Assembly: GCA_000447185.1 (NCBI GenBank)
Contig: KE647187.1
Coordinates: 1 to 14,196, forward strand
Length of the DNA stretch: 14,196 nt
Source: Vairimorpha apis BRL 01
Lineage: Eukaryota > Microsporidia > Nosematidae
Reading direction: 5' to 3'
Under the pieces are notes generated by a model. It was not told the DNA's origin and did not search any database. It saw only the letters and a list, made by a program, of their open reading frames with translations. Both the position numbers and the translations under genes were made by a program. How positions within the stretch are numbered: position 1 is the stretch's first letter; each line of letters opens with the position of its first letter. Shown piece after piece: positions 755 through 14,196 of the stretch.

Positions 755-3528
755 TTATATATTAAGTAAACTTAATAACTGTCTTAATATTTCTATTTCA
801 TACATAGCTTCTTTATCACCTAAAAGTATCAAACTTTTTTTAGCTCTTGTTAATGCTACATTTAGTCTCTCTTTACTTTCATAAACATCACATTTAATTA
901 CAGGATCAAATATAACAATAACATTATCTGATTCACTTCCTTGAAATCTGTCAATTGTTTCTACTTGACAATTTGTCAACTCTTTATTTTTTTTAACTTG
1001 AGAATTAAGATAACATAAAATTGTTGTGTTTTTTACTTTTTTGATAAATGCCTCATGGTCAATAGTTTTAGAATCAATAAAGATAACTTCATCATCATAA
1101 TGTATTCCTGATTGTAAAAGTCCATCATAAAACAAAGTATTAGATAATTTCATTATATTAGCACCCATACGATATTGTATACAAAGTTTTGAATGATTAT
1201 CATCTAGTAAATATTCAAAAAGTGAAGTATTTAATTCTTTGCTTGCTTTTACTAAAGGTTTAAGTTGTAAATGATCACCAAAAATAACAAATTTTTTACA
1301 AAGAGAAATAGGAATTAATGTAAGTAAAAGATGTTGTTGAGATCCTTCATCTATAATGCAAAAATCAAACTCTCTTTTAATAAAAATAGGATCCTTGAAA
1401 CCAAAACACGTGCTTGCAACTAAATCAATATTTTTAAAATACGTCTCAATTTCTTTTACACTATAAAAGTTAATATTTTCTTTGCAAGCTCTATATGCTC
1501 GAACTGTTTTAAGTTTATCTAAAATGTTTGTAATTGCCAAGTTTGTATAACATACCAATAAAATTTTTTTATTGAGATGAATTAAAATTTTAATAAGTAG
1601 TATTATTACAGAAGATTTACCAGTACCAGGCATTCCATGTATTATTTTATAATTTTCACAATTCAAAGCTGAGTATAAAGCTGTTTTTGATCATCATTAA
1701 GCTTTAAAAAATATGGCATATATATATTTGGAATACTATGTTCATATTTTGTTGGTGAAGGTTGAGGTGGTGTAAAATAATCAAAAGATGAAAATGACTT
1801 TTCTTCAAGACAAAAATTTATTTGTTTGTCTAATATATTCGTAGGTGTGGAATTATTCTCAATAGAAGATTGTGAAAATTTTAAATTTTTATCATTATTT
1901 TTATCATTTTCAATTTGAAAAAAATTGGAGAACTATTATTTTCTTGATTTATGATTTTTAAAGTACTTTCATTTTTAAAACGTTTACAAAAGTTTTCTTC
2001 TTCCATTTCATCATCAAAACTTGAAAAATCACATAAATCATCACTAATTTCCTGCACTTCGTTTTCAAAAATTAGACCGTTATCTTCGTTAGGTAATTTA
2101 AATCCACCTTTTTTATTTTTTCTACGTATCTAAAAAAAGCCAACTGAACTAAAGAATATCTCATATATTTAAAAAAAAGATCTGATGCTCCAAAACTAAT
2201 ATAATAGTATTCACCGTTTTCTAATTTAATTTTTTCACTAAGGGCAACATGTAAAAAAGTATTATCAATTTTATTAATAATTCCTTTACATAATTTAACG
2301 AAATCTTCGCTGTAGATATTAATAAACATATCTTCAATATTAGTTATTTTATCATCATATCTAAAAATAACCAATGTGCCTAGTTGTTTTTTTAATTTTA
2401 CATGATGCCATGTTTCTTTAATTCTGTAATTTTCTTCTTTTTCTATAGCATTCCACATTTTTTTTAAAAAATGATCTGATCTTAAACTAAATTTCTTAAT
2501 TATTTACAAATTTTAAGTCATAACATGAGCAATCTAATATTCCAGAAATATTTGTTAATTTATTTCTTAATATCATCAAACTTTTGATTTCATCATGTTT
2601 TAATTCAACCTTTACTAAATTTTTGACGTTATATAATATAAATATGGTTGAAAATATTTTTGAAATTTTTCTTTCATCATTAAACTGTATAAAATAACTT
2701 GTGCTTTATGTGAAACTTCCATAGATTTACCACTTTTTATTTCTAAAACAGTATTTTACCTATAGCATCCAAATTTCCTTTCAAATTCATACTTAGAGAC
2801 ACGATTCTTTTTTCGAAATCATCAAAAACAATATTATGACGTTCAAAGGATTTAATATTTTGAATCAATGATATCAAATCATTTCTGACATTTTTTTCAT
2901 TTGTCTCACATATATAAATATTAAGTAAATTTTTCTTTATTGATTCGTTAATTTTGATCATAATAAATGGTAGCGTATAATTTTCTTTTAACATACACTC
3001 TTCCATTATTTCATGTAAAATAATACCATTAACTAGACATTTATCATTAAATTCAAACAAAATATCTGCTATTTTAGTGTTTATAAAAGGATTATTTATA
3101 CACCTAATAGCAGATATTAAATTTGTTATTGTCATTAAATCGTCTTCAATAAACAACCAATGATGATCATCAGTAATGTTAATATATATATAATCTGAAT
3201 CTGTATTCTTCAACAATTCTTTTTCACAACACAAACATTTTGTAACAGTTATTTTTATATTTTTTTCAAAATTAATTTCTCTCCACTCACCATAAATATT
3301 GCATATAACGTCGTCTCCAATTAGAATTGTACGGTCCTCATATTTTTCAATATCTCTAATAATAAATTTTATGTGTGTTGGCTTATTATATTCTACATTA
3401 TCAACGAATTCTGCAGATGTAAAAGAAAACTCACTTAATATTTGTTCTTCATCATAATTTGAAGTAATTTGGTTAGCATCACTCCAAAAAGAAATTGCAC
3501 TTTTAAAATTTTTAGTAACTTTTTTCAT
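755..3528 (-). CDS. DNA2: DNA2-like nuclease/helicase, reading frame broken at about six sites
   Basis: DNA2 joins a RecB-like nuclease to a superfamily 1B helicase and trims Okazaki flaps and resected ends. The order here is canonical. Counting from the ATG at 3528, WLFIEDDLM and SAIRC (about 124-143) match the DNA2 region holding the first Fe-S cysteine; LHE is at 171-173; KGNLDAI (about 250-256) carries the nuclease Asp. After a frame change, LEIKSGK (about 2720-2745) supplies the E-x-K motif, followed by KAQVILYSLM. The beta-barrel region is 2115-2500, an acidic linker 1700-2110, and LNDDQK the helicase Q motif (about 1690). The helicase part (755-1683) has GMPGTGKSS, DEGSQQ, GDHLQL, QYRM, DRFQGSE and RLNVALTRAKKSL. 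Frame changes fall near 2754-2757, 2620-2624, 2498-2503, 2109-2114, 1918-1924 and 1684-1688. Overall about 920 residues, short for the family. ATG 3528 is preferred because CCC (3537-3539) precedes it. Assignment is strong; intactness is uncertain. Confidence 0.87.
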
Positions 3529-3536
3529 ATATTGAA

Positions 3537-3539
3537 GGG
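3537..3539 (-). promoter_or_regulatory. CCC start-proximal motif of DNA2
   Basis: On the - strand GCCCTTCAAT lies directly before ATG 3528, with the CCC at about -9 to -11. Similar triplets precede several other starts in this window, which supports this ATG as the true initiator over any upstream non-ATG codon. Confidence 0.5.
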
Positions 3540-3610
3540 CTTCCAAGAAATTTTGTAAAATACATTATACTCTCAATATATTAACTAGTAGTTATTGTAT
3601 AATAAAAAAT

Positions 3611-6885: not shown

Positions 6886-6888
6886 CCC
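6886..6888 (+). promoter_or_regulatory. CCC start-proximal motif of the MPP10 N-half gene
   Basis: ATCCCAAAA precedes ATG 6893, with CCC at -5 to -7. It suggests that this ORF has its own functional start. Confidence 0.55.
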
Positions 6889-6892
6889 AAAA

Positions 6893-7369
6893 ATGAATAC
6901 AGTTAAAGAAATTTATGATACGTTAAATTCAAAATATGAATGCAAAGAAATATATATTGAAGATTTTCAAACAGAACAAATTTTCTATCAAGTCGAAGAT
7001 CTAGTTAATAAAGTTATTGAAAAAAATGAAATTAAAATTAATAAATATTTGAAATTATGTGAAAAAGAATGTAATAAGACAGAAAACATAAAAATTTCTG
7101 AAAATGATGATATTAATTTAGAAAAAAGTGACGAAATTAGTAATGATATAAATGATATACAATCTGAGAATAATAAAGATTATAGTATAGATAGTAAAGA
7201 TGAAAAAGAAGAAGATTTTATTGAATTTGACGCAAGTAGTGAATTTAGTTTTGATAAAGAATCTAATGAATCAGAATTTGAAGAAGATGAAGAAATAAAC
7301 ATTGATGATCTTAAAGAATTACCAGCTTTGGATGTTTTTAAATATCTGGACAAAAATATCAAAAAATAA
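6893..7369 (+). CDS. MPP10 N-terminal-half-like acidic protein
   Basis: 158 residues. The N-terminus TVKEIYDTLNSK...KEIYIEDFQTEQIFYQVEDLV (3-38) resembles the start of MPP10, the U3 snoRNP/small-subunit processome scaffold, whose N-terminal block has the form T-K-x-L-Y-D ... L-x-V-D-G-F-D-x-E-Q-I-W-x-Q. The middle (about 65-145) is strongly acidic and low in complexity, as in the MPP10 linker. It ends LPALDVFKYLDKNIKK, reminiscent of the FFDLxEMxKFL patches there. The conserved MPP10 C-terminal block is absent here. It is found instead on the opposite strand, ending 3 bp away (7373-7855). So this is probably one half of a split MPP10 gene. The alternative is an unrelated acidic protein. The start is supported by CCC at -5 to -7. 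Confidence 0.6.
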   Translation: MNTVKEIYDTLNSKYECKEIYIEDFQTEQIFYQVEDLVNKVIEKNEIKINKYLKLCEKECNKTENIKISENDDINLEKSDEISNDINDIQSENNKDYSIDSKDEKEEDFIEFDASSEFSFDKESNESEFEEDEEINIDDLKELPALDVFKYLDKNIKK

Positions 7370-7372
7370 AAG

Positions 7373-7855
7373 CTACTTTTTTTGCAAAACTGTAACATTT
7401 TTTATATTTTGTAAACTTTTGATACTTTTACGATTAGTTTTAATTTCAACTTTTTTCTTAACAACAAATTTTGTATCTGGCATATATCCAAAACGACCAA
7501 AGTCGCTAATACTAAGTAAAAGACCTTCTATATCATTATATAGTAACTCAATATCTTCAATATCTTCGAATTTTTCATCGTCATTTTTTTCTATCTCCTG
7601 ATTTTCTTCTTCAGTAAATTCAAAATTATAATTATCAAACGTTCCTTCACGTAATCTTTGTATGGTCATTTTATATATTTCGTTATTTTGTTTTGCTGAT
7701 ATTGGTTCTGGTTTGTCATTTACAGTGTATGAAAGATCTTTTTTATTTAAAAGACTGTTTAACGGACGCTTTGTTTTGTCAACTTCTCCAAAATATTCCC
7801 AATTTTTTTCTTTAATAAGTTCTTGTTCAATTTTCTTTAAATCTTTTTTATTCAT
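7373..7855 (-). CDS. MPP10: MPP10 C-terminal domain (U3 snoRNP / SSU processome)
   Basis: 160 residues covering the conserved C-terminal half of MPP10, which in the processome associates with Imp3 and Imp4 and U3 RNA during 18S rRNA maturation in the nucleolus. DLKKIEQELIKEKNWEYFGEV (5-25) and KRPLNSLL (29-36) match the family block E-x-E-x-x-x-x-K-x-W-x-x-x-G-E-V-x-x-x-x-R-P-x-N-S-L-L. PEPISAKQNNEIYKMTIQRLREGTFDN corresponds to the P-x-P-x-x-T-E-E...I-K-x-R-I-x-D-x-x-F-D segment. ELLYNDIEGLLLSISDFGRFGYMPD (103-127) matches the E-L-F-x-x-L-x-x-K-L-D-A-L-S-N-F-H-F-T-P block. The family's N-terminal block and acidic linker are missing; a candidate lies convergently at 6893-7369. ATG 7855 follows ATCCTTGTTAAT, without a clean CCC. 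An in-frame TAA lies close upstream, so the ORF does not simply extend. Confidence 0.82.
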   Translation of the reverse strand: MNKKDLKKIEQELIKEKNWEYFGEVDKTKRPLNSLLNKKDLSYTVNDKPEPISAKQNNEIYKMTIQRLREGTFDNYNFEFTEEENQEIEKNDDEKFEDIEDIELLYNDIEGLLLSISDFGRFGYMPDTKFVVKKKVEIKTNRKSIKSLQNIKNVTVLQKK

Positions 7856-8326: not shown

Positions 8327-8887
8327 ATGCAAAAATATCTTCTTGTGTTAGATATTAATGATACACTATTGACAAAATTTAAGTATAACACATACTATCT
8401 AATAGATAAATTAAATACAGATTTAAAAGGTGAAATTTACATTTTAGATAATTGTAAAATATTGAAAAGACAATATTCTGACATTTTTTTAAAGTACATT
8501 TCTGAACATAATCTAGATTACATATTTTGGTCAACAGCATTTAAAAGAAATATTAAAAAAATGATACCATATCTTGAATTATGTGGTTATACATCTTATT
8601 TGGGTTATCTTGGACAAGAAGAATGTGAGGAAGGAATTTTAACTGACAAAATTAAAACTAAAATGAACAAAAAAAATTTGAAAGTTGTGAGTAAAATTTT
8701 TAATATTAATATCGAACATTGTATTCTAATTGATAATGATGAAAATAAACGTGTGGGAAATCAAAATTTTATCAAAGTAGAAGACACTTGTCCATTTAAA
8801 AAAGATATAGGATTTATCAATTTGTGTAAAAAAATTGATAATTACATAAATTGTAAAGATGATTGTACAATTAAACGTATTTTTTAA
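8327..8887 (+). CDS. FCP1/NIF-homology HAD-type phosphatase, variant active site
   Basis: 186 residues forming essentially one FCP1-homology (NIF) domain. Most family members dephosphorylate Ser/Thr, notably on the RNA polymerase II C-terminal domain. YLLVLDINDTLLTK (4-17) is motif I: D9 is the expected nucleophile, but the general acid/base position is N11, giving D-x-N rather than D-x-D. IFWSTAFKRNIKKMI (66-80) is the W-S/T-x-A-x-x-x-N motif II region. LGQEEC (95-100), the lysines around 110-116 and HCILIDNDENKR (131-142) correspond to the G-Q-x-x-C, Lys and I-L-x-D-D/N motifs. A subset of NIF proteins carries D-L-N-G at motif I, so the substitution may mark that subgroup rather than inactivation. 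No signal peptide or membrane segment is visible. The frame is unbroken, and CCC lies at -8 to -10. Confidence 0.85.
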   Translation: MQKYLLVLDINDTLLTKFKYNTYYLIDKLNTDLKGEIYILDNCKILKRQYSDIFLKYISEHNLDYIFWSTAFKRNIKKMIPYLELCGYTSYLGYLGQEECEEGILTDKIKTKMNKKNLKVVSKIFNINIEHCILIDNDENKRVGNQNFIKVEDTCPFKKDIGFINLCKKIDNYINCKDDCTIKRIF

Positions 8888-9927: not shown

Positions 9928-12900
9928 TTAATCTTCAGATGTTTTTTGATTATTGTTTTTGATTAGTGCTTCACATCTTTTTATACATAAATCTTCATTT
10001 ATACCAAAAATTTCTTCTATATCCACAATACCCTTTTCTAATAGATGTTCTTTAAGTTTCATATCATTTTCTTTCGTCCAATTTCTAGGCATGTTAACTT
10101 TTCTTACATTATTTATAATTACAATTTCACTAAGCCTATCAAAAAACATAATCCTCTCAAAACATTCAGATTCACTTTGTGTTCGTGATCTTCTAGGTGT
10201 ATTTAATATTTTATTAATATTATCTTTTAAACCATTTATGTCTCTACTTTCTAAAAATTTTAAAATGTTTTCTTCGTTTAATTCAGTAACCTTTCCAAAT
10301 TTCATTATTGTTTTATAAAATATACTGTCTGCTTCAGCCATTTCTTTCATTCTGTTTAAAGTAGAAATAATTTTTCTTAGTCTTTGATTACATTCTTCAG
10401 GTGCTTTATTACGTATTTTATCAGGATAATTACCATAACCATTATTAAACACTGATTCCACCAAAGCTTTGTCATCTTCCTGGTTCCATCCTCTATTTTT
10501 TTCTACATTTAATTTTTCTGTTTGTAATAAAAATTCAAAATAAACACGATTTGTGCTCTCAATAAAAATTTTTCACCAAACTTACTGTACAAATCTTTAT
10601 ATTTTTCAAATAAACTAGGATCATAATTTTCTTCTAAAACTTGATCCATACAATATGAAAAATCAGCAACCAATTTTGGATTAGGCAACTGATCAATTAA
10701 AAATTTAAATAAAAATTTAAAATGTAATAAAGAATCTTTTAAATTATAAATATTAGTTTCCTCGTTTTCTACTAATTTTGAACCATTAAATTTTAAACCT
10801 AATTTCGAAATACCTTCCTTTAAAATAATTGTAAATATTTTAAGACATTGATTTTCAAAAAATTCAACATCATTTTCTGTATCTATTAATGGTGAAATAT
10901 TTTTTTCTAATTCAATTATTTCTTCAGATGTAATTACATCATCTCTTGCTAAACGTCTCATTTGTCTTTTAACACGACCTTCATTTTCTTCGTTACGTTT
11001 TTTATTAAGTAAATTGTCCCAAAAATAAGGATCATCAATTTCTTCCTCAACTTGAAATGAAGCTTTAGAAAATACATTTCCTCCATCAGAATGTTTAATG
11101 ACTTTAGTTCTTCTTTCTAATATTTGATCAATGTCTTCTTCACAAAATTTTTTACTTGCTTCATCGGTTTCCATCAAAACACCATAAGCTCCTTTTCTTA
11201 ATAAAATTTCAATTGCATCTTTTTTCTTAACTTTTTCATTTTTCTGACCTTCAAAACTCATTTTTTGTAAAACTGCTCTATCAAGCCCTAATTTCATTCC
11301 AGCTTTGTCAAACATTTCTCTTTCGTAAGTATTTCTAGTAACAAGTCTATAAATTTTAACCTCATTTTTCTGTCCAATTCTATGACATCTAGCTTGTGCT
11401 TGAAGATCATTTTGCGGATTCCAGTCAGAATCAAAAATTATAACCGTGTCTGCAGCAGTTAAATTAATACCAACACCACCTGCGCGTGTACATAACAAAA
11501 AAACGACCCATCACTATCTTTATCACTAAATCTATCAATAGCAGCTTGTCTATGGTCGCCACGAACACCACCATCAATTCTTTCAAATTTATATTTTTTA
11601 TAAGAAAGATAATCACTTAATAGATCTAAACATCTTGTCATCTGAGAAAATATTAAAACCTTGTGTTTACCATAAAGTTTGTATAATAATTTATCCAATA
11701 AAACTAATTTACCTACTACTTTGAATTAATATTTTATAATATTCATCTAAATTGGTAATTATATTAGTATTTAAAACTATTTTTTGTGAGTTTAATGATT
11801 CTTGATTTTCTAAATCACACAAATCTTCATTTTCAACAACTGGAGATTCAACATTTTCACGTTTTTTCTCTTAATAAAATCCCCAATAATTTTTCTTCGG
11901 CTCCCTTAATTAAATACGGATGAATGCAACATTTTCTTAATTCCATCATAGCATTTAATAAATTAGGTGCCGCATCTTTGCAACCTTTAGTTAAAAAATC
12001 TAAATTTTTTTCTAAAATAGCTCGATAATATCTTTTTTGTATCATGGTTAATTCAACTTCAATAATTGTTTCTTCTTTCATCGGTATGGTTTTCTCAACA
12101 TCTTCTTTCATTCTACGCAACATAAGTGGTCTCAGTAAAGCTTGTAATTTTTCAACATCTGCACTATTTTCTAATTTGTGCTCGTTTAAAAAAGTAATGC
12201 TATCACTAAATTCATTTGGATTTATAAAATTCAAAAGTGACCAAAGTTCTTTTATATTATTTTGAAGTGGTGTACCACTTAACAGAACTTTGTGACCAAA
12301 GTTATAATTTCTTAAAGTATTTGTTGCTCTAGATGTAGAATTCTTCAATCGATGTGCTTCATCAAAAATACCAACAGCCCAGTTAAATTGAGAAAGATGA
12401 TCAAAACCAGACATAATCATTTCGTATGTGGTAATCAACACATCAAAAAGTCTGATATTTGAATTATTTGTTTTTAAAAAAAATTCATAAGCCGCAATTG
12501 TGTTTCTTCCTGAAATACTACCATGATAAATTAAAACTCGCAAATTCGTCCAAGCTAAAAATTCTCTTTCCCAATGAACAATGGTACTTAGAGGTGCAAC
12601 AACAAGAATTGGTCCTACATAGTCAAATTTTGAAAATAAACTATTAACAAAAACAACAGATTGTACAGTTTTACCTAGACCCATTTCGTCTGCCATAATA
12701 CAACTCACTTTATAATACCACCGATTTAATAACCAATTTAAACCTTCTAATTGATAAGCTCTTAATTTATTTCCATTTTTAAATTCAGGAGATTCATCAA
12801 ATTTAATCTGTAATTCTCTTGGAGGTCTCCATTCTAAAGGATATCTCATAGTTCTTATTTTTTTTCTCTCCCGATATTTTTTTAGTTCTTCCTCAAAATT

Positions 12901-13707
12901 TTCACATTTTACAGCATCTTCAGATTTTTCTTCTGTACTTAATTCGTAAGGTAACTTCTTCCATTTAATAACATAAACTTTTCCATTTTTAAAATCTTCG
13001 TGAAGTACCCTTTCTACTTTAATAAAATCAGGATCAAATGTTTCAGTCGTAGGTCTAAACCTTTTAACTTTAATAGCTCCCCCTTTTGTTTTAACAATTT
13101 CACTTCTAGAAACATAATTGCAATGAATATAACTCATATGTCTAAATTTAACATAATACTTATCTGTTTCTTTGTCATAACTTAACAATTTTTCTATAGA
13201 ATCTTCTTCCTCGTATTTTAAATCTTCATCTGATCCCATGTTTTCGTTTAAAATATTATCAGAAGTTTTCGTCAATAAGCTTGCAGCTCTTTTTTGTCTT
13301 TTTTCTGGAAGATATACAGTTCTTTCTTCTTTTTTAGGACGAACAACAGATTGTGGTCTTACATATGATTGTCTTTGTTGAGAGTTAAAGATTGATTGAT
13401 TATGTGAATTATGATAAAAATTTACTGGAGGAATATTATAATTTATTGTTTGGTTGTGTGGTTCATTGAATGTATTATAAAAACCTCTTTGTACTAAAGG
13501 ATTTACATACAACACATGATTGGTTTGTGGTGTTTTATAATGATAACCTAATGGTGAATTATAGATTACATTGTTTTGTCTTTGTGGATGTCTTGCTTGA
13601 TTAGTTTCCCACTTTCGTGGTCGTCCGCGTCTCCTAACTATTTTTTCTTCACTGCTAGTGCTATTTGTTTCAGAACTAGACTCAAATTCTTCTGTGCTTG
13701 AATTCAT
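9928..13707 (-). CDS. CHD chromatin remodelling ATPase, class III-like, frame broken at about four sites
   Basis: About 1,260 residues read from ATG 13707. In order: AT-hook RRRGRPRKW (25-33); disordered N/Q-rich region; tandem chromodomains (about 170-290; [15 protein letters not shown] and [12 protein letters not shown]); SNF2 ATPase with [12 protein letters not shown] (315-326), DEMGLGKT (340-347), DEAH (449-452) and [10 protein letters not shown] (475-484). Then come [59 protein letters not shown] and [19 protein letters not shown] and [10 protein letters not shown]...RT with FSKASF resemble CHD6-9 rather than CHD1. The C-terminus has two SANT/SLIDE-like parts ([34 protein letters not shown]). 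CHD proteins slide nucleosomes. Frame changes lie at the T6 run 11862-11867, near 11711-11719, at the A7 run 11497-11503 and near 10537-10565. Conserved motifs continue across each, so a working gene with assembly indels is the simplest reading. Class III placement is inference. Confidence 0.9.
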
Positions 13708-13709
13708 AA

Positions 13710-13712
13710 GGG
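13710..13712 (-). promoter_or_regulatory. CCC start-proximal motif of the CHD gene
   Basis: The - strand reads TTCCACCCTTATG. CCC lies at -3 to -5, closer to the ATG than in the other genes here. Confidence 0.5.
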
Positions 13713-14196
13713 TGGAATTTAGTTTTTTATTTATAGAAAAATGTGTTTTATAATTGTCATTAATGTGTTTAGCATTTTTATATCTAATTAGTATAATTCT
13801 TTTTGTAATATAATAGTTTAATTAAAAATATATTAAAAAAATTTAAATTTTTAAAAAACTTTATTTGATTCTTTTTTAATATTATATAAATTAATATGTA
13901 TGTATATTCTATTAATTACATATTATATATATTTTTCTTTTGAATTTTTTGATGGGTAAACAAAAATTTAAACCTTATTTGTTTATATTAAACATTAAAA
14001 TATTCTAAAGATTACAATTGATTTTTTTATCAAATTTTGAAATAGTATTAGCATTTGATAACATCTTTGATTAGGTTTAAATGCTTTTTTTAAATTTTTT
14101 TTATTATTATTAAAAAATTAATTAAATGTAAACAATGAAAAAATAATTTAACGTTTTTTAATATCTAATTAAAATTGATATACATCATTATAAATA
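13713..14196. other. No gene seen
   Basis: About 480 bp of A/T-rich sequence upstream of the CHD gene to the window edge. It should contain the CHD promoter. The longest small ORF I noticed is 18 codons (from ATG 13952) and has no supporting signal. Confidence 0.5.

Follow-up and report, generated by a model that had tools for sequence, protein, structure and literature searches.

Mpp10, a scaffold of the U3 snoRNP/SSU processome, has been mapped in yeast and Chaetomium as a series of modules that are parts of a single chain (PMC5558966, in its available portions), and the locus described here raises the question of how and when a microsporidian, Vairimorpha apis, came to carry what looks like the same protein as two genes on opposite strands. 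The window, by which we mean the whole stretch of 14,196 nucleotides that was analysed, belongs to an assembly whose 223 contigs total 5.96 Mb. A first-pass annotation of the window had placed two ORFs tail to tail, with 3 bp between their stop codons and about 318 residues in all, and translation confirmed coordinates, strands, spacing and length. The + strand ORF (6893-7369; hereafter the N-half) encodes 158 aa and has its stop codon at 7367-7369, the - strand ORF (7373-7855; the C-half) encodes 160 aa and has its stop codon at 7373-7375, and three bases (7370-7372) lie between the two. The summed 318 residues on two genes of opposite strands compare with one Mpp10 gene elsewhere, the PDB chains being 593 (yeast), 681 (human) and 785 (Chaetomium) residues long. 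The features of the locus are as follows.

6886-6888, + strand: CCC just 5' of the ATG at 6893, read from the sequence.
6893-7369, + strand: probable MPP10 N-half gene, 158 aa, with N-terminal motif region, acidic linker and conserved C-terminal tail (Pfam PF04006, E 0.0011; N-domain profile, rank 1 of 879 frames; conservation in the related protein P0005).
6944-7021, + strand: predicted N-terminal motif of Mpp10 (residues 18-43), corresponding to motif 2 of the Chaetomium protein (residues 125-157), which binds Utp3/Sas10 (hhalign and shuffled sequences; motif function from the available part of PMC5558966).
7079-7300, + strand: acidic, fast-evolving linker, residues 63-136 (translation, identity to P0005, low pLDDT).
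7301-7366, + strand: conserved C-terminal tail of the N-half, residues 137-158 (19/22 identical to P0005).
7365-7370, + strand: AATAAA overlapping the N-half stop codon, a putative poly(A) signal (sequence).
7373-7855, - strand: MPP10 C-half gene, 160 aa, in the C-only form seen in Nosema, Vairimorpha and Ordospora (Pfam PF04006, E 4.5e-12; 11 relatives 42-99% identical).
7598-7846, - strand: predicted Imp4-binding region within the C-half (where PF04006 matched when the genome was searched; profile against yeast, human and Chaetomium; Imp4 domain of Chaetomium in the available part of PMC5558966).

From the three-base gap, the 3' UTRs of the two convergent genes are predicted to overlap, and are likely to do so in antisense. 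On the - strand, the first AATAAA past the C-half stop codon in the stretch examined starts at 7222, within the + ORF, and the C-half transcript therefore probably overlaps the N-half gene. A CCC before the start codon is a promoter-like motif of microsporidia, and the one reported upstream of the + ORF was indeed found. The spacing of the pair is uncommon, not unique. A sample of about 214 kb, made up of the window and 10-kb stretches taken from 20 contigs, holds 12 convergent pairs in which both ORFs reach 100 aa; their median gap is 691 bases, and the MPP10 pair is one of two separated by three bases. The other such pair (L012, 6159-7781) joins a member of the RNA 3'-phosphate cyclase family, possibly Rcl1, to one of the ribulose-phosphate 3-epimerase family.

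The C-half matched the Pfam Mpp10 family with an E-value of 4.5e-12 and 46 bits, above the curated cut-off of 29.9, over positions 299-381 of the 529 in the profile and starting at residue 4 of the ORF. This is in keeping with the first-pass annotation, which had read the - ORF as carrying the C-terminal blocks of MPP10 and lacking the N-terminal block. The open frame extends just 6 codons upstream of the ATG (166 versus 160 aa), which leaves no room for an in-frame N-terminal block. When a profile of 12 C-half sequences (A2) was compared with PDB chains, all seven matches at E 0.001 were Mpp10 (E 2e-8 to 7e-7; 5o9e_B, 5wlc_NA and 7mq8_NA among them), and the profile aligned the Imp4-binding region with residues 309-382 of the yeast, 369-445 of the human and 485-556 of the Chaetomium protein; the C-half thus has the same Imp4-binding region as the processome scaffold of those three organisms. 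L105, N107, I109, E110, L113, F119 and the run K152-N153-V154-T155-V156 are common to all 12 rows of the profile. A putative Imp3-binding helix and basic C-terminus have just a secondary match to yeast of 0.7 bits and a likeness seen by eye. Judged by its sequence, the C-half is MPP10 without the N-terminal half, and this identity is both secure and ordinary for the group.

How ordinary is apparent from its relatives. A protein search with a length window of 0.55-1.75 times the query (about 88-280 aa), outside which a longer fused MPP10 would be hidden, found 11 of them, 147-160 aa long and 42-99% identical, all C-only. Each has its own start codon (11/11), which lies no more than about a dozen residues from one common block and just ahead of the Imp4 region. 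They include the models of V. ceranae (NCER_100234), V. necatrix, N. bombycis, N. granulosis and Ordospora pajunii (42-60% identical, 151-160 aa), which are of the same kind as the - ORF and have a similar start. As these comparisons read, an MPP10 gene without the N-terminal block is the usual state in the group and is not peculiar to the V. apis locus. A tree was built from the C-half sequences except P0006, which is near-identical to the window, and thus from 11 of 12; in it the window pairs with P0007 with full support and on a long branch; the place of the pair relative to Nosema and Vairimorpha is not fixed.

Because C-only models occur in five other microsporidia, the separate C-half gene appears to be older than the V. 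apis locus, and this counts against the mechanism proposed in the first-pass annotation, namely that V. apis inverted the 3' half of its own MPP10. If the 3' half of one MPP10 gene had recently been inverted in place in this lineage, the observed layout would result, with two ORFs tail to tail, three bases apart and one compact protein long when summed; such a recent event is nevertheless rejected as very unlikely, since Nosema, Vairimorpha and Ordospora have C-only MPP10 genes that start at almost the same point, which places the separation of the C-half before V. apis. The layout may instead have arisen by an ancient inversion that left the pair in place, by duplication followed by complementary losses, or by a break with re-insertion. 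Searches for the N-half, which require shared 5-residue words and could miss diverged proteins, found variants of the window protein and P0005, and none in the named C-only species; in V. apis, by contrast, the N-half adjoins the C-half. A homologue search with a masked two-row profile gave the same five N-half proteins. The N-half diverges faster than the C-half toward what is apparently the same relative, with 54% identity (P0005) versus 79% (P0007).

That relative also bears on the integrity of the assembly. P0005 and P0007 are separate halves, each on a contig of 3301 bases, and are apparently encoded on one and the same contig. The first-pass annotation had named local misassembly of an ordinary fused MPP10 as the main rival explanation. 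The interrupted reading frames of the window, in its DNA2-like and CHD-like genes, could be taken to favour such an error, but the chance of it is close to negligible in view of what other contigs hold. The N-half protein of the window (P0001) occurs on five contigs, the window being one of them; near-identical N-halves of nearly the same length (P0002 and P0003; 98-99% identical, 158 and 161 aa) lie on others; a C-half 99% identical to that of the window (P0006) is found on two further contigs; the relative just described likewise has its halves apart; and a start codon of its own precedes the C-half in every relative found. The whole assembly yielded no second copy of either half among the top candidates that a permissive initial scan passed on for scoring; the family search had missed the N-half itself. 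A second intact MPP10 elsewhere in the genome was also considered and none was found in the assembly searches. No relatives were confirmed in viral contigs or in contigs of prokaryote genomes.

If the C-half is MPP10 as the group commonly has it, the standing of the locus depends on the N-half. The MPP10-like N-terminal block and acidic linker that the first-pass annotation had seen in the + ORF are probably real, and we consider homology of the N-half to the N-terminus of Mpp10 to be probable, with modest support and short of certain membership of the family. Against PF04006 the N-half had an E-value of 0.0011 over profile positions 27-147, although its 18.3 bits are below the curated cut-off of 29.9, which the C-half exceeds. 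The scan covered four of the five N-half proteins, P0004 being left out, and the same part of the profile was matched by P0002 (E 0.0015), P0003 (E 0.0025) and P0005 (E 0.0076). Residues 1-62 of the N-half alone matched Mpp10 at E 0.016, and the same 62-residue fragment of P0005 gave no Mpp10 match in Pfam. The family was matched by none of six shuffled versions of the N-half, nor by the one linker-and-tail fragment scanned.

Comparisons with the N-terminal domain itself point in the same direction. When a profile of the human, yeast and Chaetomium Mpp10 N-domains was run against 879 open frames of at least 40 codons from the sampled 214 kb, the + ORF ranked first with an E-value of 0.00058, the next frame having 1.2. 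With hhalign, a two-row profile (window and P0005) aligned to that of the three reference proteins over 26 columns, residues 18-43, with P 0.0026 and an HH-suite probability of 11%. In local alignments of residues 1-62 of the window protein, 0, 3 and 26 of 2000 shuffles reached the score against Chaetomium, yeast and human, respectively; for the N-terminal fragment of P0005 the corresponding numbers were 1, 288 and 569, the latter two being chance-like. By these alignment tests N-terminal motif 2, which binds Utp3/Sas10 in Chaetomium, appears to be present in the + ORF and is weaker in P0005. The motif of the + ORF aligns with the Utp3/Sas10-binding stretch of Chaetomium Mpp10, and as in that protein (PMC5558966, available part) it is followed by an acidic stretch. 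The long acidic loop was recognized by eye at residues of about 63-136, a composition shared by many proteins. For a putative motif 1, the N-terminal hydrophobic one, the AlphaFold model, of low confidence overall (mean pLDDT 55.9), has a helix at residues 4-15, and the resemblance to the human protein is by eye only.

The same results can be read differently, in that the + ORF would be an unrelated, fast-evolving acidic protein with a chance likeness to the motif and the MPP10 of the group would simply have lost its N-half. The Pfam score under the cut-off and the low HH-suite probability would suit this reading, as would the lack of any PDB match at E 10 for the N-half ORF or its three-row profile and the failure to find an N-half in the named C-only species, where a word-based search could have missed one. 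Loss of the N-half is also feasible, given that yeast lives without it (PMC5558966, available part). We nevertheless regard an unrelated protein as unlikely, because the + ORF stands far ahead of every other sampled frame, because its top Pfam family is that of the adjoining gene and the part matched is the complementary one, and because shuffling abolished the match in six of six cases. The whole-genome search with PF04006 listed the C-half alone and not the N-half, and an NCBIfam search of the N-half gave nothing relevant. The tail of the N-half was also considered as a counterpart of the DDxFF block of Mpp10 and rejected, as 1156, 825 and 1509 of 2000 shuffles reached the score against human, yeast and Chaetomium; for the P0005 tail the numbers were 1720, 167 and 1296.

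The conservation of the N-half is that expected of a gene under constraint. The window protein and P0005 are identical at 38/50 positions in residues 1-50, at 33/80 aligned residues over the stretch with the linker (51-136) and at 19/22 in the tail (137-158), and since both ends are conserved while the linker drifts, the N-half is best regarded as a constrained protein. The AlphaFold model places helices at residues 4-15, 27-44, 46-64, 137-140 and 145-156, with pLDDT below 50 at 64-104, 117-120 and 123-131. That the N-half might be a decaying relic without function is highly improbable: a frame change near the tail of the variant P0004 would be expected of a relic, whereas conserved ends flanking a diverging linker would not. 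P0004 shifts frame near the tail and runs to 235 aa, over the C-half in antisense, which may reflect a sequencing indel or a strain difference.

Homology of the N-half to the Mpp10 N-terminus would give the locus a coherent order. In Chaetomium, Mpp10 comprises an N-terminal domain (residues 1-162), an acidic loop (184-467), an Imp4 domain (475-562), an Imp3 domain (612-643) and a basic C-terminus, and residues 125-157 bind Utp3/Sas10 and are required for this binding in a reconstituted complex (PMC5558966, available part). The two V. apis ORFs together follow this order of modules, and the C-half starts close to the start of the Chaetomium Imp4 domain. We therefore favour, as a likely though not a certain account, a fission of MPP10 at the border between the acidic linker and the Imp4-binding domain in this microsporidian lineage, earlier than V. 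apis, after which the N-half would have been retained as an in-trans tether. The Imp4-binding region and the conserved C-terminal part would have stayed with the C-half, along with the essential task of anchoring Imp4 (and presumably Imp3) at the junction of U3 and pre-rRNA. The Utp3/Sas10-binding motif would have stayed with the N-half, as would the acidic linker, and this second protein would enter the same small-subunit processome on its own and serve there as a tether in trans. Judged by the C-half, the fission would be older than V. apis and common to Nosema, Vairimorpha and Ordospora.

Truncations of yeast Mpp10 indicate how such a division might be tolerated. Cells are viable with residues 299-593 alone, from which the N-terminal domain and loop are missing; growth is slow with residues 96-593, and loss of the Imp4 region is lethal (PMC5558966, available part). 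Because the yeast 299-593 form is viable, a fission at this point would leave a C-half able to work alone and an N-half that adds the Sas10 tether. Action of the N-half in trans is the most likely reading of the sequence relationships, and a two-subunit scaffold and binding to Sas10 are predicted from it. The fission probably dates from before V. apis, although repeated detachment of the N-half would give the same picture. A broader version, which we put forward only tentatively, is that MPP10 was split at the module border in an ancestor shared by Nosema, Vairimorpha, Ordospora and V. apis, and that the N-half survives in many microsporidia as a free Sas10 tether too diverged to notice; in the V. 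apis lineage the halves would have stayed tail to tail, and the overlapping transcripts predicted for them may couple the expression of the two parts. If so, an essential processome scaffold that is elsewhere a single chain would be a two-subunit one.

Were the split natural, it would follow that no covalent link is needed between Sas10 tether and Imp4 scaffold. In the available part of one survey, all components of the Mpp10 subcomplex and of three others were present in all eukaryotes examined, with a few named exceptions among which Mpp10 does not figure (PMC3879963). The split also bears on a question raised for microsporidia, in which ribosome biogenesis factors are reported to be reduced to about half of the ancestral set: whether and how they build ribosomes alone (PMC3919561, available part). 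Some apparent losses of factors in microsporidia may be fast-evolving, detached halves that searches miss, and C-only MPP10 gene models should not be taken as plain truncations before the other half has been sought. Split-Doa10 is likewise a eukaryotic nuclear gene divided naturally by fission, but it encodes an unrelated, polytopic membrane protein (PMC3464245, available part). No description of a divided MPP10 was found in the literature searched for microsporidia, Encephalitozoon, the SSU processome and gene fission, a search from which subscription journals were mostly out of scope.

The presumed partners of the two halves are partly recognizable in the genome. Two Brix matches were found, one BRX1-like and the other Imp4-like; the Imp4-like ORF (L025, 4982-5407, 142 aa) matches residues 146-287 of human IMP4, its C-terminal part, with an E-value of 2.8e-10. 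A search of the genome for the Sas10 domain gave no match, and the same search gave none in any control genome either. Imp3 was not identified among three S4-domain matches, of which the one on contig C110 is ribosomal uS4 and the L027 ORF appears by eye to be of the eS4 type. The uS4 is closest to PDB chain 6rm3_SJ0, from what we take to be the V. necatrix ribosome. The Rfam model of microsporidian SSU rRNA had no match in the 5.96 Mb versus a match in 9 of 14 control genomes, and the rRNA may be absent from the assembly. Five matches to TLC nucleotide transporters were also seen (L029-L033, on contigs C198, C188 and C193), three of them with an internal stop codon. Together with the uS4 match and with the fact that the C-half has its nearest named proteins in Vairimorpha and Nosema, these transporters make a microsporidian genome very probable, the missing rRNA match notwithstanding.

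Within the window, ordinary genes recognized by Pfam encode a dynein light chain (311-637, - strand), ribosomal uL2/L8 (5599-6312, - strand) and a NIF-type phosphatase (8327-8887, + strand). One apparent DNA2-like nuclease-helicase gene extends over 758-3564 (- strand) in up to seven consecutive, partly overlapping frames, with Dna2 at one end (E 1.8e-15) and an AAA_12 helicase at the other (E 1.3e-21), a pattern that may be due to sequencing indels or decay. A CHD-like remodeller at 10512-13821 (- strand), whose first frame matches SNF2 (E 1.1e-78) and a chromodomain (E 2.7e-10), is broken over about four consecutive frames, whereas both MPP10 halves are open.
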